NCBI GenBank assembly: GCA_035063765.1
Contig: JAPSFT010000006.1
Span: forward strand, 62,001-126,000
Source of the DNA: Deltaproteobacteria bacterium
GTDB lineage: Bacteria; Myxococcota_A; UBA9160; PR03
Direction of reading: 5' to 3'
DNA: 64,000 bases
Numbering within the stretch: position 1 is the first letter of the stretch; every line of letters starts with the position of its first letter. Both the position numbers and the translations under genes were made by a program. The notes beneath the pieces are model-generated. The model was given only the letters and a program-made list of their open reading frames with translations. It searched no databases and was not told where the DNA came from. Positions 27,428-40,928 of this stretch are shown piece after piece.

Positions 27428-27732
27428 GCAGAATGGCCTAGCAGGAAGTCCATTCGGGCTATGTGACCCCATCTGACACAGGCTTGTTTGACGCTGTTTT
27501 CATTCGACCACTGCATGTAGGGGGTGCAGAGGATGGCGGCGGCAGGAGTCAGAGGGCATGGGTTTGGACCCCGTGCCTCACTCGCACCGGCTGCCACTCG
27601 GCTGGGTTGGAACCAGCCATGAAAGGCACCCCCGCGGCTCCATTGAAGCTTGGTCGTGTCCGTAGCAGTTGCTGGCGCTTTTCCATCTTCCCGCGGAGCG
27701 AAACGACCCTCATCTGTACGGAGGCGAAAGGC
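27428..27732. other. 305-bp intergenic region upstream of the CRISPR-Cas operon
   Basis: No convincing gene. Visible elements: a TTGACG hexamer at 27488-27493 (possible -35, no clear -10), a hairpin at 27555-27577 with GGCATGG/CCGTGCC arms, a second hairpin at 27600-27618 (GGCTGG/CCAGCC), and the repeat-like sequences at 27632-27649 and 27687-27696. GGAGG lies just upstream of the csb1 ATG. Sequence is visibly less GC-rich than the flanking acyl-CoA dehydrogenase gene. Confidence 0.6.
27614..27722 (+). repeat. solitary degenerate CRISPR repeat pair (possible mini-CRISPR / regulatory crRNA gene)
   Basis: Bases 27632-27649 read CCGCGGCTCCATTGAAGC, identical to the last 18 nt of the 36-nt repeat of the array 11 kb away, in the same orientation. 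After a 37-nt interval (array spacers are 34-38 nt), 27687-27696 reads CTTCCCGCGG, matching 8 of the first 10 repeat bases. So the crRNA 5' handle and the start of a following repeat are kept while the other halves are degenerate. This is the layout reported for Cas-regulating CreR/CreA-type RNAs. It ends about 10 bp before csb1. It could instead be a decayed array fragment. Confidence 0.6.
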
Positions 27733-28950
27733 ATGTCACTCACGATCGATCGACTTCGGGATCTCATTCGAAACGACGCGGCCCTCCGGCGGGCGCGCCG
27801 CCTTCAGCCCACAGAGGGGCCCGGAGCGAAGCTCTTCCCCCCCACTTACCCTGGGACACGCCCCGGCGATCCTCCCCGCCACATCTTCGAACACCGGCGG
27901 ATCGGCGGCGGCGACGTGCTCTGCGTTCTGATCGACAGCGTCCAGAGCCAGGCGAATCGGCTCGAAGAGGCGCTCCGCGACGCACGCGAGAACTGCGTCG
28001 CCTTTCCCGCGATCAGCGTCGACTTCTCGGATACTGCAGTCGGTGACATCGGTCGGATCACGACGCTCGATGCTCCGCATCGTGTGTTCGACGCGATCAT
28101 CCGTGATTCCGAGCTCGACGGCGTGCGTTTCCGCGACACCGAGGCGGGCAAGCGGATCCTCGCGAGCAAGGCAGCGCACGCGCGCGCTGTCTACGAGCTC
28201 TCGCCGACGGCGCTCGTGTTCGGCGCGTGGAACAGCACGGGCGAAGGCGGTGGCCTCGGCGCCAAGTTCCCGCGTGCCGTCGTCTCGGAGATCGTGGGAA
28301 TCGGTGTGGCGCAGGAGCCCGGCGCGAGTTCCGAGGGGTCGCGGCCCTCCGGTCGCCGACCGGGAAGCCGCATCGACCCGCTCGGGATCCGCTCGGGCGT
28401 GCGCGTCTACAAGCTCGAGGGCGGCGATTGGAGCCTCGAGAAGCCCAAGAAGGGCGGAAAGGAGGTGAAGCCCTCGGAAGTCAACCACTCGAACATCGCG
28501 CCGACCATCCAGGAACTCGGCGTGAGCGTCGACCATGTCCTGCACACCTTCGTGATCTCGGCCGCAGCACTGCGTCGGCTTCGGTTCGCCAACGGCAGCA
28601 CGGAGGCCGACGAGGTGGCGCGCACGGCGCTGGCGGCGCTCGCTCTAGTCGCGGTCACGGCGCAGGACCGCGCCGGCTACTTCTTGCGCTCGCGATGCGA
28701 TCTCGTCCCCGAGCCTGATTCGCCGGCGGGGTTCGAGATCGTGAGGACTGATGGCCGGACGGAAAGCGTCGAGGCCGACCTCGAATCCGCCGCCAGGCTC
28801 CTGCAACAGGCGGTGAACGCCGCGAAGGATGCTGGCATCCTGTGGAACGCAGAAGATCTCATGCTGAAACCCCAAGCGAAGCTGGTCGGGCTCGTCAAGC
28901 AGAGCCGGGAGCTTGCCCTCGTGGGCGCCGAGGAGCAGCAGGAGGACTGA
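27733..28950 (+). CDS. csb1: type I-G Cas7 (Csb1/GSU0053 family)
   Basis: A 405-residue Cas7-type backbone protein that would coat the crRNA spacer in the type I-G (I-U) Cascade complex. Family features: a RAMP-like core with VLCVLIDSVQSQANRLEEAL (the SxxSQxNR-type motif of GSU0053 proteins), FGAWNSTGEGGGLGAKFPRA, and SNIAPTIQELGVSVDHV. ATG 27733 is preceded by GGAGG. First gene of the effector operon; csb2 starts 1 bp after its stop. Confidence 0.88.
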   Translation: MSLTIDRLRDLIRNDAALRRARRLQPTEGPGAKLFPPTYPGTRPGDPPRHIFEHRRIGGGDVLCVLIDSVQSQANRLEEALRDARENCVAFPAISVDFSDTAVGDIGRITTLDAPHRVFDAIIRDSELDGVRFRDTEAGKRILASKAAHARAVYELSPTALVFGAWNSTGEGGGLGAKFPRAVVSEIVGIGVAQEPGASSEGSRPSGRRPGSRIDPLGIRSGVRVYKLEGGDWSLEKPKKGGKEVKPSEVNHSNIAPTIQELGVSVDHVLHTFVISAAALRRLRFANGSTEADEVARTALAALALVAVTAQDRAGYFLRSRCDLVPEPDSPAGFEIVRTDGRTESVEADLESAARLLQQAVNAAKDAGILWNAEDLMLKPQAKLVGLVKQSRELALVGAEEQQED

Positions 28951-28951
28951 G

Positions 28952-30391
28952 ATGCTCACCCTCGAGATCGAGCTTTTGACGAGCGTCTACCGAGCGGTCC
29001 TGCCGGACGGGTCGGCGCCCGAGTGGCCACCGCACCCGGACCGCGTCTTCTCGGCCCTCGTCCAGGCATGGGGAGATGGCGGAGAGCGAGAGGATGAGCG
29101 CCAGGCCCTGGAATGGCTCGAGTCCCTCGAGGAGCCGCCGCTGATCGAGGCGAGCGGGGAATGGTTCCAGCGCGATTCCGCCTCCGTTTTCGTCCCTCCC
29201 AACGATGCTCGCAACGGCGAGTTGGCGCTCCTTCCGGATAGACGCCCCCGCCAGTCCCGCTCGTTCGCGGCCTGCGTGCCTGCGGATCCCGTCGTCCGCA
29301 TACGGTGGCGCGGTGCGCCGCCAAGCTCGCATGAATCGGCTCTGCACCGCCTCGCACATCGGGTCGCGAGCCTCGGTCATTCTTCGTCGCTCGTCCGGTT
29401 GTCGATCGCCGGAGAGGCTCCTTTGGCGCCCGAGCGGACTTGGAGACCGAGCGAAGGAGGTGCCCACTCACTGCGATCTCTCTACCGCGGACGACTCGCA
29501 GATCTTATTGCCCGGTACAACACCGGACGCCGTCCGATGACCCGGAGCACGATCCGCTATGCCGCACCAGAGGAGGAAGCCGACCACGCCACGCCCTCCA
29601 GCGTCTTCGGTGGATCGCGCGACTGGTTCGTCTTCGAAGACGTGGATGGGAACGCGCCCGACGTGCTCGGCTTCGCGCACATCGCGCGACGGCTCCGGCA
29701 CGCACTGATGTCGTTTGCATCCCAGCCGCCTCCGGAGACGCTCTCGGGACATGCTCCTGATGGAAGCGCCAGTCAGCGCCCTCACGCAGCCATCGTCCCG
29801 CTCCTCGACGTGGGTTGGGAGCATTCGCGTGGAGGGCTCCTGGGACTCGCGGTCGTCCTGCCGCGCGAGATACCAGCCGCCGAAAGGGCGGCGATACTAG
29901 ACGCGCTCGCCCGCTTCGCCCGTGTCGACGAAGGACCCACGGCACTCGCCGTGCTGAACTTCGCGCTCTCCCGTTGGCGCCTCCGCCGAGTCGCGCTTCC
30001 GGAGCGCGCATCGCTCGGCCCGGGACGCTGGTGCGGCACGGGATCGACCTGGGCCAGTGCGACGCCCGTCGTGCTCGACCGCTTCGCAGACCATGCCGAC
30101 CCCGCAGAGGAGGCTCGCATCATCGCGGCGAGCTGTAGGAGCATCAGCCTTCCGGAGCCCGTTTCTATCGAGATCCACAAGTACTCGGCGCTTCGCGGCG
30201 CGCCCGAGGCCTATCCTGCTCGCGGCGCCGCCAACCGCCCGACCTGGGTGTTTCCGACGGGCTCCAGGCTCGCCCAAAGGCCTCGTCGCCACGTCTTCCT
30301 GGAGTTCGCCGAGCCGCTCACGGGCCCCGTCATCCTCGGCGCGGGGCGCTATCAAGGCTTCGGGCTCTGTCTTCCGGTCTCCGGACGGTGA
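28952..30391 (+). CDS. csb2: type I-G Cas5-Cas6 fusion (Csb2/GSU0054 family)
   Basis: A 479-residue protein expected to cap the crRNA 5' handle and cut pre-crRNA. The N-terminus LEIELLTSVYRAVLPD followed by PEWPPHPDRVFSALVQAWGD is characteristic. The C-terminus ends in a glycine-rich RAMP loop (GPVILGAGRYQGFGLCLPV). The Cas6 catalytic residue was not identified with confidence. The stop overlaps the cas3 start (GTGA). Confidence 0.86.
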   Translation: MLTLEIELLTSVYRAVLPDGSAPEWPPHPDRVFSALVQAWGDGGEREDERQALEWLESLEEPPLIEASGEWFQRDSASVFVPPNDARNGELALLPDRRPRQSRSFAACVPADPVVRIRWRGAPPSSHESALHRLAHRVASLGHSSSLVRLSIAGEAPLAPERTWRPSEGGAHSLRSLYRGRLADLIARYNTGRRPMTRSTIRYAAPEEEADHATPSSVFGGSRDWFVFEDVDGNAPDVLGFAHIARRLRHALMSFASQPPPETLSGHAPDGSASQRPHAAIVPLLDVGWEHSRGGLLGLAVVLPREIPAAERAAILDALARFARVDEGPTALAVLNFALSRWRLRRVALPERASLGPGRWCGTGSTWASATPVVLDRFADHADPAEEARIIAASCRSISLPEPVSIEIHKYSALRGAPEAYPARGAANRPTWVFPTGSRLAQRPRRHVFLEFAEPLTGPVILGAGRYQGFGLCLPVSGR

Positions 30392-33300
30392 CGCCGATGA
30401 GCATTGAAACGCTTCAGCTTTCCGCGTTCCCGCGGTTCTTCGAAGAGGTCCACCAGGTTCGGCCGTTTCCGTGGCAGCTCCGGCTCGCCGAGCGCGTATT
30501 CCACGACGGCTGGCCTCGTGCGCTGGACGTGCCCACAGGAGCCGGAAAGACATCGGCGATCGACGTCGCTGTCTTCCACCTCGCCTGCCAGATGGACCCT
30601 GCCTCACCGGCGAACCGTCGCGCAGCTTGCCGGATCCTCTTCGTGGTCGATCGCCGGATCGTGGTCGACGACGTCACTCGTCACGCCGAGCAGATCGCCG
30701 CTGCCGTCGAGGAGCGGCGCGGACCTCTCACGCGTCTCGTTGCCGAGCGCCTCCAAGCGCTGGCCGAGTCGGAACGCCGTCCACTCGAGGTCGTTCGCCT
30801 TCGTGGAGGAGCGCCCAAGGAGCCCGACTGGGTCCGCACGCCGACGCAGCCGATCGTGGTCGTCTCGACCGTCGACCAAGTGGGATCCCGTCTCCTCTTC
30901 CGGGGCTATGGCGTGAGCCCGTCGATGCGGCCCGTGCACGCGGGTCTCCTCGGAAGCGACTCCCTGCTCCTCCTGGATGAAGCACATCTCTCCCAGCCCT
31001 TCGTGACGACGGCCCAGGCGATCAGCGATCACCAGCGGGCGTCGGCATCGAACGCTCTCCCGGCTGCACCCCTCCAGGCTGTCACGCTTTCCGCGACTCA
31101 GCTAGAACCGTCGCCTGAGCTTCTGACCGCAGCTGATCGAGAGCACCCGATCCTCGGCCCTCGCCTCTCGGCCACCAAAGTCACCCGCCTCGACCTCCTC
31201 TCCTGCAAGTCCGACTCGTCCGAGCACATCGACGGAATCGTCGAGCGCACCTGCGTACTGGCAGCCGGTGAGGGCACGTACGAGCCACGGGCGATGGCCA
31301 TCATCCTCAATCGGGTGCAGCGCGCTCGCCGTGTCTTCGAGGGCTTGCAGAAGATGATCACCGGGGCGGACATAGTGCTCCTGATCGGCCGCTCCCGGCC
31401 CCTTGCACGCAACCGCGCCCTGGCAGATGTACTCCCGCGCATCAAGGCCAAGCGTGATCGCACTGTCGGCGGTGTTTCCCTGGAGAGGCCGGTGATCGTC
31501 GTTGCCACCCAGTGCGTCGAGGTTGGAGCGGATCTGGATTTCGACGCCCTGGTGACCGAGATCGCGCCGCTCGATTCCCTCCGCCAGCGGTTCGGACGCC
31601 TCGACCGAATGGGAAAATGCTCGGCTGCCGCGCGCACGCTCATCATCGCCGCCGCGGATCAGGTAGGTGCGCGCTCGAAACCGGATCCGGTGTACGGAAC
31701 GGCAATTGCAGCGACATGGAATTGGCTGGTCGACCACGCCTCCAAGAGGAAAGCCGGAAAGACAAAGGTTCTCGAGATCGATTTCGGAGTGGAGGCGTCC
31801 ACCGCCTGGCTGCCTACCGAGCCCGCCACGCTCTCGTCGTTGGTTGCTCCTCGCGCGGATGCGCCCATGATGCACCCCGCCTTCGTCGATGGTTGGTCAC
31901 GAACCTCTCCGTCCCCGACGAACGAGGCGGATGTCGCGCTCTTCCTTCACGGCCCGGAGAGCACGGGAGAGGTGCAGATCATCTGGCGGGACGACCTCGA
32001 GCGTCCCGCGCGGGCGTCCTGGACAGAGAAGGTCGCCGTATGCCCTCCATCGACCTGGGAGGCCGTGCCGGTTCCAGTCTGGGAAGCCCGCCGTTGGCTT
32101 CAAGGCCTCGAGGGCGACCCCCAACTAGACGACCTCGAGGTGTCACCTGCGCCGGAAGTCGAGCGAAGTGGCAGACGCGGCTATCAGGTCTTGCGCTGGA
32201 AGGGGACAGCACAGGAGTCCAAGCTGATCTACGCCACGGACGTGCGGCCGGGAGACGTCCTGGTGGCGCCCGCGGGCGATGGCGGCTGTGACATGTGGGG
32301 GTGGAATCCCGCCTCGCGCGAGGTGGTGGAGGATCTCGGATACGAGGCGAACCGCGAGCACCGTCGCGTCGAAGTGCTGCGCCTCTCCCCGCGACTTCTC
32401 GAGCGCGATGTTCTACGAGACACGCCGGTCGACGAGCAGGCGCAACTGAAGGCGCGCGCCGCCGCTCGCCGACTGAAGGATTGTCTTCCTGGACTCCTCG
32501 ACGCAACAGAGGCCGAGGTGATGGTGCGGCTTCGCGAGCTTCCCGATCTTCCACCGAAGTGGCGTCGCTTACTCGACTCGGACACGGCGCGTCTGCTACG
32601 CGCAGAGGAGACGACCTCGGACGGCAGGGCGCCGTCCCTCGAATCTGGCCTTCCGCTTGCAGTCGTCCTGCGCGTGGAACGACTCATCAACGACGCGACG
32701 ACCGAAGACGACGAGGGCTCGCGCAGGAGCTTCCGAGCGATCCGCTTGAGCGACCACTCGCAGGGGGTATCGAGCCTGGCGCGCTCGTTCGCCGAGAAGT
32801 GCGGCCTCCCCCCTTCGCTGATCGATGATGTGGCGCTGGCAGCCTTCCTACACGATGCGGGGAAGGCTCACCCCGCGTTCAAGATGTGGCTGTACGGAGG
32901 GGACGAGCTGGCCGCCACCGGTCCCGCTCTCGCCAAGAGCGGCCGGCGGTACCTCCCGCAGCGGGCACGCCGGCTCGCAGGGCTGCCGCAGGGCGCCCGT
33001 CACGAAGTGGCGTCTCTCGCCTTCGCAGAGGCGCACCCGAAGCTGCAGGAGTCGAACGATCCGGCACTCGTGCTCTGGCTCGTCGGCACGCATCATGGCT
33101 GGGGACGGCCGTTCTTCCCGGGCGTCGATTGGCCGAATGGAGGCGACGTCTTCTCAGCAGATATCGGCGACGGCGTGGTGAAGGCGACCGCGCGGCCGCT
33201 TTCCGAGCTGACTGCTCGCTGGCTCGCTCTTCGCGACGACGTAGTCCACCGCTATGGACCTTGGGGCCTGGCGCGGCTCGAGGCCATTCTTCGTCTTGCC

Positions 33301-33402
33301 GACCATCGGCGCTCGCAGTTGGAGCAAGAACCCGAAGCAGTGACGGGGAACGGGGGGAGGAGCGTCCAGGGCAAGAAGGACTCCTTGGAGCAAGACTCAT
33401 GA
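30388..33402 (+). CDS. cas3: Cas3 helicase with C-terminal HD nuclease (type I-G)
   Basis: A 1004-residue Cas3 that would unwind and degrade DNA after Cascade binding. Walker A is DVPTGAGKTSAID near residue 47, the DExH box LLLDEAHLSQPF near 194, motif VI LRQRFGRLDRMGK near 396. The HD nuclease motif FLHDAGKAHPAF near 819 lies at the C-terminal side, the order found in I-G (other types have HD first). The GTG at 30388 overlaps the csb2 stop; an ATG at 30397 is an equally possible start. A 60-bp sample (31741-31800) is 53% GC by hand count, far below the flanking chromosome. Confidence 0.92.
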   Translation: MTPMSIETLQLSAFPRFFEEVHQVRPFPWQLRLAERVFHDGWPRALDVPTGAGKTSAIDVAVFHLACQMDPASPANRRAACRILFVVDRRIVVDDVTRHAEQIAAAVEERRGPLTRLVAERLQALAESERRPLEVVRLRGGAPKEPDWVRTPTQPIVVVSTVDQVGSRLLFRGYGVSPSMRPVHAGLLGSDSLLLLDEAHLSQPFVTTAQAISDHQRASASNALPAAPLQAVTLSATQLEPSPELLTAADREHPILGPRLSATKVTRLDLLSCKSDSSEHIDGIVERTCVLAAGEGTYEPRAMAIILNRVQRARRVFEGLQKMITGADIVLLIGRSRPLARNRALADVLPRIKAKRDRTVGGVSLERPVIVVATQCVEVGADLDFDALVTEIAPLDSLRQRFGRLDRMGKCSAAARTLIIAAADQVGARSKPDPVYGTAIAATWNWLVDHASKRKAGKTKVLEIDFGVEASTAWLPTEPATLSSLVAPRADAPMMHPAFVDGWSRTSPSPTNEADVALFLHGPESTGEVQIIWRDDLERPARASWTEKVAVCPPSTWEAVPVPVWEARRWLQGLEGDPQLDDLEVSPAPEVERSGRRGYQVLRWKGTAQESKLIYATDVRPGDVLVAPAGDGGCDMWGWNPASREVVEDLGYEANREHRRVEVLRLSPRLLERDVLRDTPVDEQAQLKARAAARRLKDCLPGLLDATEAEVMVRLRELPDLPPKWRRLLDSDTARLLRAEETTSDGRAPSLESGLPLAVVLRVERLINDATTEDDEGSRRSFRAIRLSDHSQGVSSLARSFAEKCGLPPSLIDDVALAAFLHDAGKAHPAFKMWLYGGDELAATGPALAKSGRRYLPQRARRLAGLPQGARHEVASLAFAEAHPKLQESNDPALVLWLVGTHHGWGRPFFPGVDWPNGGDVFSADIGDGVVKATARPLSELTARWLALRDDVVHRYGPWGLARLEAILRLADHRRSQLEQEPEAVTGNGGRSVQGKKDSLEQDS

Positions 33403-34403
33403 CTTTACCGGCGTCGCCGCTGGGAACCGCTCCCGAAGGATCTGTTCTGCGCATGCCGGGCCTGGAGGTCGACAATCTCCTTGCCCAACTCGCGAGCTGG
33501 GGTCTTCTGAGGGCATTGGATGAAGCTCGACCGGTCTGGTTGCCGCGTCTGTCCTGGGCGGGTCCCCCGTGGTGCGCTCGCCTCCACTTGGCAGATGAAG
33601 CCGACGAGGCCGAGGTCGCCCAGGTGGCGAACGAGGGAGTGCTCTCGATCGCCCGCCGGTTCGACGTCGGCTCGCATCGCAACGTGAGCTTCGACGAGGA
33701 CGCCTATCTCGAGCATCTGCAGCACGTTCGAGGTGACGAACAGGGCTCCGGACTCGCTGCCGCACTGACGGCACAGCGACCGCATCGTCGGGATGGCACG
33801 CTCATGCCTTCGCCGTTCGTCCTGATGTTCGGCCAGGGACACCAGCACTTCCTGGAGCGGCTCGTCGACGTTCCGCTCGGAGTGCTTCCGAAGCGCCTTC
33901 AACGGCGGAAGCCGGCTCCGAACCTCAACGATCCGGCCAGGATCGCCGACGCACTCTTCGCCCCCTGGCGCCGCGACGACGAAACCGATGCGTTCCGTTG
34001 GGATCCCAAGGAGGACCAGAGGTACGCGCTTCGCTTCGACGATCCCAGCGAAGCCGGCGCTGCTGCCACCGTCCACGGTGCCAACCGCCTGGCCACCTTG
34101 GCGTTCGCCTCTCTCACGTGCGCGCCCAGGCGCGATGCTCCGGGCGTCGCCGCGGTGCGCCGCGCCCGGGCCACGATCGAGTTCATCTGGCCCATCTGGG
34201 ACGTTCCGCTCGGCTTGGGAGGGATTCTTTCCCTGCTCTCCCATCCAGACGTGATCGCGGGCCGGCTCCAGAACGTCCGCGCGTTCGGCGTGCGAGAGAT
34301 CTACCGAGCCCGACGAATCTCCAACGGCAAGTTCATGAACGTCTCGTGGGCGCAGCCGTTTGCGGGCGATCCCCTCGGAGGGCAGCGACGCTCCTCCCGT
34401 TGA
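33399..34403 (+). CDS. csb3: type I-G Cas8-like subunit (Csb3/GSU0052 family)
   Basis: A 334-residue protein occupying the position of the Cas8 (large-subunit/PAM-reading) gene of I-G loci. N-terminal RMPGLEVDNLLAQLASWGLLRAL and C-terminal FGVREIYRARRISNGKFMNVSWAQPF agree with Csb3-type proteins; it is much shorter than the Csx17 variant. ATG overlaps the cas3 stop (ATGA), confirming one operon csb1-csb2-cas3-csb3. Assignment rests mainly on position, size and weak motif resemblance. Confidence 0.7.
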   Translation: MTLPASPLGTAPEGSVLRMPGLEVDNLLAQLASWGLLRALDEARPVWLPRLSWAGPPWCARLHLADEADEAEVAQVANEGVLSIARRFDVGSHRNVSFDEDAYLEHLQHVRGDEQGSGLAAALTAQRPHRRDGTLMPSPFVLMFGQGHQHFLERLVDVPLGVLPKRLQRRKPAPNLNDPARIADALFAPWRRDDETDAFRWDPKEDQRYALRFDDPSEAGAAATVHGANRLATLAFASLTCAPRRDAPGVAAVRRARATIEFIWPIWDVPLGLGGILSLLSHPDVIAGRLQNVRAFGVREIYRARRISNGKFMNVSWAQPFAGDPLGGQRRSSR

Positions 34404-34423: not shown

Positions 34424-34452
34424 TTGACTTTCGTCTTTTGTTCGCATAGCGT
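34424..34452 (+). promoter_or_regulatory. sigma70-type promoter for the HNH gene
   Basis: TTGACT (34424-34429), 17-bp spacer, TAGCGT (34447-34452). A second GTTGACT lies 24 bp upstream at 34399. The promoter is downstream of the csb3 stop and upstream of the HNH ATG at 34490, so the HNH gene can be transcribed apart from the cas effector operon. An AT-rich patch in otherwise GC-rich DNA supports it. Confidence 0.55.
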
Positions 34453-34489
34453 ACTCCCATCCGCTCGTGGGCTGGAGAGAGTCGCTTCG

Positions 34490-36301
34490 ATGAGCATCGG
34501 GGTCAGCGTCGTTCCTCCCGTCCAATCCAGTGAAGACTCCGAGACCACCCTCGCCCACCTCTCCGCCGCCACCGGCCCCCTCCGCCACGCCCTCGCCGCC
34601 ATCGCCGCGCGCCTGCTCGAGACCCGCGCCTACGAGCCCCTCTGCTACGCCCGGATCGGCGACTACGCGCGTGAGCGCGTCGGTCTCTCCGCACGCCAGC
34701 TCCACGACCTTGCGCACGTGCACCGCACGCTGGCTGCGCTGCCGTCCCTCGAGCGCGCCCTGCTCGGCAACGAGCTGCCCTGGAGCAAGGTCAGGCTCGT
34801 CGCCCGGGTGGCGACGCCGGCCGACGAGAAGGCCTGGATCGCGCGCGCCCGCGTGCTGCCGATCCGCCGGCTCGAGGCCGCGGTGCGGGCGAGCACGCCC
34901 GCCGGGCCGCCGGTCGAGCCCGACGACGGCCTCGCCTGCACGCGGCTCACCGTGCGCTGCACGCTCGCGGTGCGCGAGAAGTGGCGCCTCGCCCACGAGA
35001 TGGCCGAGCGCGTCGCCGGGCAGCGCCTGCGGGCCGACGAGGCGCTCGAGTGGGTCACGGCGGAGGCCTGCTCGAGCGCCGCGATCGATCCGGCGCCGGA
35101 GCCCGACCCGGTGGACTACGAGCGGTGGAGTGCCGGCGCGGCGGACCAGGAAGGCGCACCAGACCCTCTCGACGACGTCGGGGACGCCAGGGCCCTGCCC
35201 GCGCTCGAGCTGCCCGCGATCGCGTCCCTCCGTGACGGGCTCGACGAGGCCGATCCCATCGAGCTCGATAGGCGGCTGCGCCTCGCGGTCCGGCTCGAGC
35301 AGACCCTGGACGCGGCGATCGCGCCGCTGCTGCGCATCGTGACGTCGGCCGAGTACGAGTGGAGCGGCCCCTCCTACCTGACGCTCGCGACCTACGCGAC
35401 CGAGCACCTGGGCATGTCCGCCAGCAAGGCCCGCGCTCTCCTCCGCATCGAGCGCGCGGGTGACGTCTGCCCGGAGCTGCGGGAGGCCTTCCGCACCGGC
35501 CGCCTCTCGTGGGCCAAGGCGCAGTGCCTCCTGTCGCTCCTGCTGCTCGACGTTCCGGGCGAGTGGCGCCCGCGCTGGGTGGCATGGGCCGAGCGCGTCA
35601 CCGTGCGGCGCCTCGAGGCCGACGTCGAGCGCGCACTTCTGCTGCGCGCCGGCACCCACTTCGCCTGGCAGCGCTGCAAGTACCACCCGGAGCAGGCGCA
35701 GGATCCGATCCCGGAGCACGAGCAGCAGATGTGTGCAGAGGAGATCGACACCGAGGCGACCGAGACGCTCCGCTGGCGCGTCGCGCGCGAGGTCGCCGGG
35801 CTGTTCCGGGCCGCACACCAGACCTTTCGCGTGCAGTTGCAGTCCTGCGGCCTGCGCCATCCCTCCGGCGGCCAGGCCTTCGAGGCCATGATCGACCACG
35901 CGATCGTGTCGTGGAGTCGCTTGGATCCCGATGGCCCTCGCCCCGATCCCGTGATCGAGCGCGACGGCTACCGGTGCGCGGTGCCCGGGTGCTCGTCCCG
36001 GCGCAACCTCCACGATCACCACATCGTGTTCCGCTCGGCGGGAGGCTCGAACGCGCCGGACAATCGGATCACGCTCTGCGCGTTCCACCACCACCGATGC
36101 CTCCACGCCGGCCGCCTGCGGGTGCGTGGCCACGCGCCGGACCACCTCGTGTTCGAGCTGGGTGTGCTGGGAGGAGAAGGGCCGCTCGCGCGCTATCGCT
36201 CGGGAGACATCGCGGTCGGTCTGCACCACGCCGACAACCTTTCGCATCGAGCGGGTCGGTTCCTGCCGGCGCTCGCGGCCGCGGTCCCCGCAGCCCCGTA
36301 G
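34490..36301 (+). CDS. DUF222-type HNH endonuclease inside the CRISPR-Cas locus
   Basis: A 603-residue protein with a long helical DUF222/13E12-like region and a C-terminal HNH nuclease. The two helical halves each carry an LxxxxxTRAYEPL/ARSYLTL-like segment (TRAYEPLCYARIGDYARE; YLTLATYATEHLGMS). The HNH runs CAVPGCSSRRNLHDHHIVF then NAPDNRITLCAFHHHRCLHAG, about residues 494-545. Catalytic HH, Asn and His are intact. It separates the effector genes from cas4-cas1 and has its own promoter. A sample (34801-34860) is 82% GC by hand count, unlike cas3, so it was probably acquired separately. This family is often multicopy in actinobacterial and deltaproteobacterial genomes; a CRISPR role is unproven. 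Confidence 0.85.
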   Translation: MSIGVSVVPPVQSSEDSETTLAHLSAATGPLRHALAAIAARLLETRAYEPLCYARIGDYARERVGLSARQLHDLAHVHRTLAALPSLERALLGNELPWSKVRLVARVATPADEKAWIARARVLPIRRLEAAVRASTPAGPPVEPDDGLACTRLTVRCTLAVREKWRLAHEMAERVAGQRLRADEALEWVTAEACSSAAIDPAPEPDPVDYERWSAGAADQEGAPDPLDDVGDARALPALELPAIASLRDGLDEADPIELDRRLRLAVRLEQTLDAAIAPLLRIVTSAEYEWSGPSYLTLATYATEHLGMSASKARALLRIERAGDVCPELREAFRTGRLSWAKAQCLLSLLLLDVPGEWRPRWVAWAERVTVRRLEADVERALLLRAGTHFAWQRCKYHPEQAQDPIPEHEQQMCAEEIDTEATETLRWRVAREVAGLFRAAHQTFRVQLQSCGLRHPSGGQAFEAMIDHAIVSWSRLDPDGPRPDPVIERDGYRCAVPGCSSRRNLHDHHIVFRSAGGSNAPDNRITLCAFHHHRCLHAGRLRVRGHAPDHLVFELGVLGGEGPLARYRSGDIAVGLHHADNLSHRAGRFLPALAAAVPAAP

Positions 36302-36391
36302 CGACCTCCCCGCAGTCGGACGGCTCCATCCATCTGCGCGGATGGCCGAAGAATGGGCATCGGCCACCTCTCCGCCTTGCGGAGGCCCGCG

Positions 36392-38083
<1,692 letters not shown>

Positions 38084-38087
38084 GCGG

Positions 38088-38375
38088 ATGCGCAAGCTCC
38101 TGATCGTCACCTACGACATCTCGAACCCGAAACGGCTTCGCAAGGTGTTCAAGGCCATGAAGGGATTCGGCCAGCATCTCCAGCTCTCGGTCTTCCGCTG
38201 CGACTTGACCGACATGGAGCGTTTCGAGATGATCGGCCTGCTGCAGGGGCTGATCCACCACGACGAGGATCAGATCCTGTTGATCGACCTCGGCGCGAGC
38301 GATGGCCGCACGCATCGCGTCGACTCGATCGGTCGCGTCGTCCCCCGCGAGCGGCGCGAGCCGCGGATCTTCTGA
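38088..38375 (+). CDS. cas2: Cas2
   Basis: A 95-residue Cas2, the dimer that bridges Cas1 during spacer integration. VTYDISNPKRLRKVFKAM carries the conserved Asp after the first beta strand; LSVFRCDLTDMERFEM and DQILLIDLG follow the ferredoxin-fold pattern. It begins 4 bp after cas4-cas1 and directly precedes the leader and array. Confidence 0.93.
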   Translation: MRKLLIVTYDISNPKRLRKVFKAMKGFGQHLQLSVFRCDLTDMERFEMIGLLQGLIHHDEDQILLIDLGASDGRTHRVDSIGRVVPRERREPRIF

Positions 38376-38618: not shown

Positions 38619-40820
38619 GTTTCCGCGGCTACCAAGCCGCGGCTCCATTGAAGCCTCGAATCCGAGTACGCACAGGTCTCGAAGTTCGCCGTTTCCGCGG
38701 CTACCAAGCCGCGGCTCCATTGAAGCCCGGCGATCCGCTGCGAGATCAGGAAGAGCACCTTGAGTTTCCGCGGCTACCAAGCCGCGGCTCCATTGAAGCC
38801 TCGACCCACGCCCGGTCGATCCCCTCCATCGACTTCGTTTCCGCGGCTACCAAGCCGCGGCTCCATTGAAGCGGTCCGGCCTTCGCGGCGAAGATTGCGG
38901 CGCGCTCGCTGTTTCCGCGGCTACCAAGCCGCGGCTCCATTGAAGCGCCCACCCCGCAAGCGCACGCACGATCGAGGCCTCGGGTTTCCGCGGCTACCAA
39001 GCCGCGGCTCCATTGAAGCGGCTCCGACGTGTACTCGATCGTCGGCGTGAAAGAGTTTCCGCGGCTACCAAGCCGCGGCTCCATTGAAGCGTGGCCTGTC
39101 CGGTCGCGCTCTCCGACATGCGCTCGGTTTCCGCGGCTACCAAGCCGCGGCTCCATTGAAGCCTCTGGAACGATGGCCCGACGCCGGAGGAGTGCGCGGT
39201 TTCCGCGGCTACCAAGCCGCGGCTCCATTGAAGCACCCCCGGGCGACCTTGATAAGCTGGGCGGCCCCCGGTTTCCGCGGCTACCAAGCCGCGGCTCCAT
39301 TGAAGCCCTGAGCGCTGCGGTGAGCGCGCGCGCACTCTGGCTGTTTCCGCGGCTACCAAGCCGCGGCTCCATTGAAGCGGGCGCCTCCTGGGCGGGGTTG
39401 AGGACAACGCCGAGGTTTCCGCGGCTACCAAGCCGCGGCTCCATTGAAGCTACGCGATCCGCGGCACCTCGGGCCCCGGGAAGGAGTTTCCGCGGCTACC
39501 AAGCCGCGGCTCCATTGAAGCCACTTCGGCGCTGCGCTGATCTGGAAGCCCTGCCGGTTTCCGCGGCTACCAAGCCGCGGCTCCATTGAAGCGTGACGTG
39601 GGGCGCGCTCCCCGAGCCGAGCCTGAAGAGTTTCCGCGGCTACCAAGCCGCGGCTCCATTGAAGCTACCCGATGACCGCGCAGCAGCACACGATCCCGAC
39701 GGCGTTTCCGCGGCTACCAAGCCGCGGCTCCATTGAAGCTCGCCATCGCGCGAGGGTGACCTCCAGCAGATCGCGGTTTCCGCGGCTACCAAGCCGCGGC
39801 TCCATTGAAGCCCGTTGGCGCCCGGTGACACCGGCATCGGACGCACGGTTTCCGCGGCTACCAAGCCGCGGCTCCATTGAAGCGCCCCGACGGCAGTGGG
39901 GGTAAACACGACGAGCGCGGTTTCCGCGGCTACCAAGCCGCGGCTCCATTGAAGCTTCTCGAGCACCCAGCCCTTGAACTCGGCGGCGGCGGTTTCCGCG
40001 GCTACCAAGCCGCGGCTCCATTGAAGCCGGTCTGCGGCGGACTTGCCGAACACATCATCGAGGTTTCCGCGGCTACCAAGCCGCGGCTCCATTGAAGCGC
40101 GATGTGCGCCTCGACGGTGCTCACGACGCGCTCGCAGTTTCCGCGGCTACCAAGCCGCGGCTCCATTGAAGCGAGGGGGATCTCGCTCACCCGGTCGGCA
40201 ATCTTGCGGTTTCCGCGGCTACCAAGCCGCGGCTCCATTGAAGCCGCGTCAAACTGTATCCGATCGCCCCGCCGAGCGCGGTTTCCGCGGCTACCAAGCC
40301 GCGGCTCCATTGAAGCACGTTGAGGACGTTCGACTGATTCACGGTCATCCAGGTTTCCGCGGCTACCAAGCCGCGGCTCCATTGAAGCACCTCGAAGCGC
40401 CCGAACCGCGGCACATAGTCGCCGAGTTTCCGCGGCTACCAAGCCGCGGCTCCATTGAAGCGCGACGATGTCGCGGCGGATCTCGGCCTGCTCGCCCTGT
40501 TTCCGCGGCTACCAAGCCGCGGCTCCATTGAAGCTCGTGGAGCTGGCCGCGCAGCTCGCCGCGCTGATGGGTTTCCGCGGCTACCAAGCCGCGGCTCCAT
40601 TGAAGCGAGGCGCTCTACGAGCGCACCGGGCTCCCGGCGGAGTTTCCGCGGCTACCAAGCCGCGGCTCCATTGAAGCGGAGCCCTGAGCGGCCTCCTCGG
40701 ACCCGTCTCGAGTTTCCGCGGCTACCAAGCCGCGGCTCCATTGAAGCTTCAGCTCCGAGAGCAGCAGGAACGAGACGTGCCCGTGTTTCCGCGGCTACCA
40801 AGCCGCGGCTCCATTGAAGC
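38619..40820 (+). CRISPR. CRISPR array, 31 repeats and 30 spacers, type I-G
   Basis: A 36-bp repeat starting GTTTCCGCGGCTACC and ending GCTCCATTGAAGC recurs 31 times from 38619-38654 to 40785-40820. All copies read as identical, including the last. Spacers are 34-38 bp, mostly 36. Inside the repeat CCGCGGCT and AGCCGCGG form an 8-bp stem with a 4-nt ACCA loop, a Cas6-type hairpin; the ATTGAAGC end matches the usual crRNA 5' handle and fixes transcription on the plus strand away from cas2. Lack of any degenerate terminal repeat suggests an active or recently shortened array. No two spacers look alike. Open frames crossing the array are artefacts. Confidence 0.98.
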
Positions 40821-40928
40821 GGCGTGATGGCCGCGGGGACGCCCTTGCTTCGAATGAAGCCCTTGCCTGCCGCCGCCTCCACTGCTTCGACGCCGCTGGC
40901 GCTCGTCCCCGCGGCCATCACGCCGCTT
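40817..40928. repeat. 25-bp perfect inverted repeat at the leader-distal end of the array
   Basis: Arms 40817-40841 and 40904-40928 are exact reverse complements (AAGCGGCGTGATGG... against ...CCATCACGCCGCTT), separated by 62 bp that hold a small GCTTC/GAAGC stem. The left arm includes the last four bases of the final CRISPR repeat. It could be a terminator for pre-crRNA or the end of an inserted element that truncated the array. The rest of 40929-41030 holds only the upstream region of the next gene. Confidence 0.7.

Follow-up and report, generated by a model that had tools for sequence, protein, structure and literature searches.

Introduction

Type I-G is the least studied of the type I CRISPR-Cas systems and, to our knowledge, is missing from the lists of subtypes with CreR. 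These crRNA-like RNAs that regulate cas genes were reportedly described by Liu et al. in 2023, with I-B, I-E, and V-A as the subtypes tested, and in the same year Shmakov et al. are said to have carried out a wide computational survey that found crRNA-like mini-arrays across CRISPR types, mostly type I; type I-G cases may already be listed there. Autoregulation of cas genes by a natural single-guide RNA of the type II-A Cas9 was, reportedly, described by Workman et al. in 2021, a study cited in PMC10651486.

CreR is known from types I and V-A (PMC12737573). Three rules from described systems were applied here: the CreA seed, consisting of nt 1-5 and 7-11 (PMC8501985), the type I-G PAM, TTN, and the 8-nt crRNA 5' handle left by Csb2 (both PMC9638904). 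The feature under study is a candidate CreR-type mini-CRISPR in the leader of csb1, made up of a half-repeat (psi-R1), a pseudo-spacer and a second half-repeat (psi-R2), in a 64-kb stretch of DNA, all of which was analysed and is called the window.

The type I-G locus

The locus was assigned to type I-G by profile search, and its operon runs csb1, csb2, cas3g, a 'Cas3-extension'/Cas8g-type gene, an HNH protein gene, cas4-1, and cas2. The features are:

27488-27493, plus strand: TTGACG hexamer, read from the letters, a possible -35 box of the csb1 promoter
27632-27649, plus strand: psi-R1, CCGCGGCTCCATTGAAGC, identical at 18/18 positions to the 3' half of the array repeat
27642-27649, plus strand: 8-nt handle within psi-R1, ATTGAAGC
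27650-27686, plus strand: pseudo-spacer of 37 nt, TTGGTCGTGTCCGTAGCAGTTGCTGGCGCTTTTCCAT, with no target found
27687-27696, plus strand: weak psi-R2, CTTCCCGCGG, matching 8/10 of the first ten repeat bases
27733-28950, plus strand: csb1 (cas7g), by profile
28913-30391, plus strand: csb2 (cas5-6g, the crRNA-processing subunit), ORF limits, with the profile match starting at residue 14
30388-33402, plus strand: cas3g, by profile
32886-34403, plus strand: ORF with the Cas8g-type or 'Cas3-extension' large-subunit gene, matched at residues 188-492 approximately
36353-38083, plus strand: cas4-cas1 fusion, by profile
38088-38375, plus strand: cas2, by profile
38619-40819, plus strand: CRISPR array, 31 repeats of 36 nt with spacers of 34-38 nt

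Between the large-subunit gene and cas4-1, at 34424-36301 (plus strand), a protein of 625 aa is encoded that has an HNH motif at its C-terminal end. It matched an IscB-type HNH profile at 6e-9, under the cut-off, has no relative among the I-G loci collected, and looks like a general HNH insertion, not a Cas subunit. The sequence after the last array repeat (40820-40841) is inversely repeated at 40903-40924, GGCGTGATGGCCGCGGGGACG, and is possibly a terminator-like or terminal structure.

The Cas4-1 and Cas2 proteins are about 82% identical to those of a same-genus genome (G061, loci L148-L150), with which the window also has its repeat type in common, whereas csb1 and csb2 share only 33-39% identity with that genome (csb1 about 39%). 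This disparity indicates that the effector and adaptation modules differ in history and were swapped at the locus. The same-genus genome has no counterpart of the window element, and in the same-family genomes in which an orthologous element was sought, the effector module is not orthologous.

Anatomy of the window element

The 36-nt array repeat is GTTTCCGCGGCTACCAAGCCGCGGCTCCATTGAAGC, and its last 18 nt recur exactly, on the same strand, at 27632-27649; the half-repeat of the original prediction, with its handle and orientation, is thereby confirmed. The 4.4-Mb genome has 32 copies of this 18-mer, 31 in the array and one as psi-R1, which is its sole copy outside the array. Chance resemblance is refuted by this for psi-R1, and as an account of the element it is extremely improbable, although psi-R2 by itself could be random: between 0.35% and 0.46% of window positions have an 8/10 match at the psi-R2 spacing (p about 0.004), and psi-R2 is for this reason weaker evidence than psi-R1. 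The second half-repeat that had been proposed is a weak candidate at 27687-27696, with only a 4-bp stem and no repeat-like hairpin, where most relatives have 6-9 bp. The proposed spacer-length stretch between the two was borne out, its 37 nt falling inside the range of the array spacers.

The 5' half of the repeat, with its hairpin, is missing from psi-R1. The predicted RNA fold of the element was not better than that of shuffled sequences, and an Rfam search with it returned nothing over threshold. It lies on the plus strand, 91 nt ahead of csb1, and is flanked by an acyl-CoA dehydrogenase gene and csb1, as judged by an ORF search that is blind to small RNA toxins. Neither extra repeats nor array debris were found around it. 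Two characters of CreR are present in the element, namely an ectopic repeat half with the 8-nt handle beside cas genes, and a pseudo-spacer of spacer length.

Related elements in other type I-G loci

Loci were taken from the same phylum (25 I-G loci) and from GTDB genomes (80 of 434), and 103 were analysed, the window included, after overlapping entries and one locus that lacked upstream DNA had been removed. Upstream of csb1, each locus was scanned for halves of its own repeat or, if it had no array, of an I-G consensus. The ectopic layout of psi-R1, pseudo-spacer, and psi-R2 upstream of csb1 recurs in related I-G loci, many of which have a psi-R1 with the handle, then 36-40 nt, then a psi-R2, often with a 6-9-bp hairpin. 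The elements are found on either strand: a frequent form lies on the minus strand about 350 nt upstream (L064, L073, L079, L080, L088, and L104), and another on the plus strand 108-147 nt upstream (L084, L093, L106, L109, and L039). In position and orientation the window element resembles the putatively active plus-strand members L084, L093, L106, and L109, and a psi-R1 without hairpin is found also in the target-bearing loci L077, L079, L080, L084, and L039. The half-repeat of the active relatives is usually more diverged (12-15 of 16) than the 18/18 of the window. By its anatomy the window element is a member of a type I-G CreR-like family.

No clear equivalent was seen in its nearest effector relatives, L053 and L054. 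A further locus, L055, carries an element on the opposite strand whose match, with TTG, is degraded to 11/15, and whose spacing is 70 as in the family. The comparison across related loci that had been proposed yielded half-repeats with cognate promoter matches in some relatives, but no equivalent in L053, L054, or the same-genus genome.

On the minus strand of L057, about 390-540 nt upstream of csb1, there is a short array with near-complete repeats, whose spacer agrees with the csb1 promoter region in 15 of 15 paired positions next to a TTA PAM; it looks like a form midway between array and CreR element. Two Alicyclobacillus loci, L076 and L091, have related elements whose psi-R2 stems differ yet are paired (CCACAGAG/CTCTGTGG and CCACAGA/TCTGTGG). 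Their seeds also diverge, and the targets diverge with them.

Matches to the locus's own promoter

Selection by half-repeats alone gave 20 elements. With the range extended, 16 of these reached 9/10 or better at a TTN site ahead of the csb1 of the same locus. A joint screen of all loci (handle at least 7/8, seed at least 9/10, TTN) recovered 17 of the 103. Three more, L081 and L084 with a 6/8 handle and L091 in the extended range, bring the set to 20 loci. In all, 20/103 I-G loci have a pseudo-spacer that agrees at 9/10 seed positions or better with a site flanked by TTN at their own cas promoter. Set against the 17 real loci of the joint screen, shuffled handles gave a mean of 0.15 loci and a maximum of 2 (100 handles), seeds shifted by 1-15 nt gave 0-2, and other PAM dinucleotides gave 0-1 each (handle at least 7/8). 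When guides were swapped among loci, 3/552 non-cognate pairs reached 9/10 or better, as against 20/24 cognate pairs, 4 of the 24 having been chosen by the joint screen itself. Several of the targets overlap TTGACA -35 boxes: the protospacers of L073, L079, L080, L088, L093, and L099 contain TTGACA or a close variant of it, and in L076 the target site is surrounded by TTGACC-17-TATAAT.

Across the 20 cognate pairs, agreement was 19-20/20 at nt 1-5, 7, 8, 10, and 11, and 14/20 at nt 9, and it fell near or to chance at nt 6, 12, and 18 (8/20, 5/20, and 5/20). At nt 13-17, positions that lie outside the selection criteria, 12-17 of 20 agreed. The set thus has the rhythm of type I, in which every sixth base is unpaired, and its extension into the unselected nt 13-17 is independent support for a guide that binds DNA in Cascade. 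That the periodic pairing reaches nt 17 suggests how far complementarity may extend while the I-G effector binds its target but does not destroy it.

Of 20 further I-G loci, all taken from a single other class of the phylum, none gave a strict match and one, L162, gave a relaxed match; the family is therefore unevenly spread. The element of L162, which is of the same genus as L037, has a degenerate handle, GTTGCAGC, and a 10/10 seed match with PAM TTC located 260 nt further upstream.

The cognate matches and their controls strongly support CreR-like self-regulation in type I-G as a class, and for the related loci that bear such matches the predicted mechanism, in which an RNA guide leads to occlusion of the cas promoter, has good sequence support. 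About 20 loci now have a predicted guide, PAM, target, and promoter, which makes autorepression of I-G cas genes directly testable. The general idea behind the original prediction, CreR-type self-regulation, was thus upheld for the class by 20 of 103 loci with a match to their own promoter, but not for the window copy, which has no promoter target.

Search for a target of the window guide

The window element lacks two other CreR characters, a match of seed (nt 1-5, 7-11) and PAM to the cas promoter, and a psi-R2 hairpin. Near csb1, the best TTN site for its guide matches 6/10 of the seed, the value of the non-cognate background, and scoring over 15 positions gave a best of 8/15 compared with a shuffled-guide mean of 7.8. 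A scan of the 64-kb window for PAM and seed with up to two mismatches matched nothing except the element itself, and in the whole genome there are zero exact matches to TTN plus the 10-nt seed. No promoter site matching the guide was found in the window or the genome. Nor does any array spacer reach 9/10 against the csb1 promoter. A sigma-70 scan ahead of csb1 passed no promoter.

The site that had been proposed, TGGTCG at 27505-27510 on the minus strand, was rejected as a target: the letters do pair, but the PAM is GCA and not TTN, and a seed of 6/10 is the level of random pairs. An active CreR, whose RNA would guide Cascade to 27505-27510 and repress csb1, agrees with the place, orientation, handle, and spacer length of the element, and with a class mechanism supported in its relatives. 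It is nevertheless highly unlikely for this copy, given the six-base match at non-cognate background, the wrong PAM, and a psi-R2 without hairpin, and the prediction that the pseudo-crRNA of the window represses the csb operon did not hold up.

It is also conceivable, though doubtful, that the guide is live and has a target that was not recognised, in a distant gene (as for CreA), beside a different PAM, or in unassembled DNA. The perfectly preserved handle half-repeat speaks for this, as does the assembly, which is 96% complete and so leaves room for an off-contig target. Against it, the genome scan gave, besides no exact match, only five one-mismatch matches, all within long ORFs and near the number expected by chance, and a search of phage and plasmid sequences for the origin of the pseudo-spacer gave no match spanning 80% of its length and none that was convincing.

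Origin and fate of the window copy

In active members of the family, the element would be transcribed, its RNA cut by Csb2 and loaded into the type I-G Cascade. With a TTN PAM and base pairs at nt 1-5, at nt 7-11, and at some of nt 13-17, Cascade would then occupy the cas promoter and keep it repressed. Such pairing would be too short for destruction of the target, and the result would be a negative feedback that senses free Cascade. The window copy cannot be counted as a working member, because the target and the psi-R2 hairpin, both of them testable functional features, are absent. It is probably an inactive or target-less remnant of a type I-G CreR, or a copy orphaned by a change of promoter or effector module; a perfect handle half-repeat would have outlasted the cognate promoter site and the psi-R2 hairpin. 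Swapping of modules at the locus offers a simple route to such a loss of the cognate promoter.

The same swapping would also suit a plain fragment of the array, a half-repeat with an old spacer that recombined here and was never regulatory, and so would the 18/18 identity without degeneration, the weak psi-R2, and the absent target. Yet its position, strand, and spacing coincide with those of the CreR-like family ahead of the same gene, and no other repeats or array debris lie nearby, which makes this origin rather unlikely.

The relic or orphan reading has its own difficulty, as an old relic would hardly be expected to keep its 18-nt half undegraded. The element could be of recent origin or maintained by selection, which leaves some probability, if a low one, to a live guide with another target. 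That the class uses CreR autorepression (TTN, 5+5+5 pairing) and that the window guide is live, re-aimed away from the csb1 promoter, is a combination that we consider improbable. The window copy illustrates that half-repeats by themselves are no proof of a working regulator.

Comparison with known systems

The single-guide RNA of the type II-A Cas9 resembles the proposed mechanism as a case of RNA-guided cas autorepression, but it is based on Cas9 and tracrRNA and its anatomy is unrelated. The mini-arrays of the Shmakov et al. survey are closer, being standalone repeats with spacers that are, reportedly, partly complementary to cas promoters.

The CreA RNA of CreTA (PMC8501985, PMC9458426) shares two degenerated flanking repeats with the window element, and with the related I-G loci the use of a PAM and a seed at nt 1-5 and 7-11. 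It differs in that CreA represses a toxin RNA, whereas the neighbour here is csb1, and in that of its two repeats psi-R1 is the more diverged, whereas in the window psi-R1 is the intact half.

From the described CreR the present case differs in its subtype, I-G, and in a window copy without target or psi-R2 hairpin. It is like CreR in being a mini-CRISPR beside the cas operon, with 20 related I-G loci in which a short seed and a PAM match the promoter.
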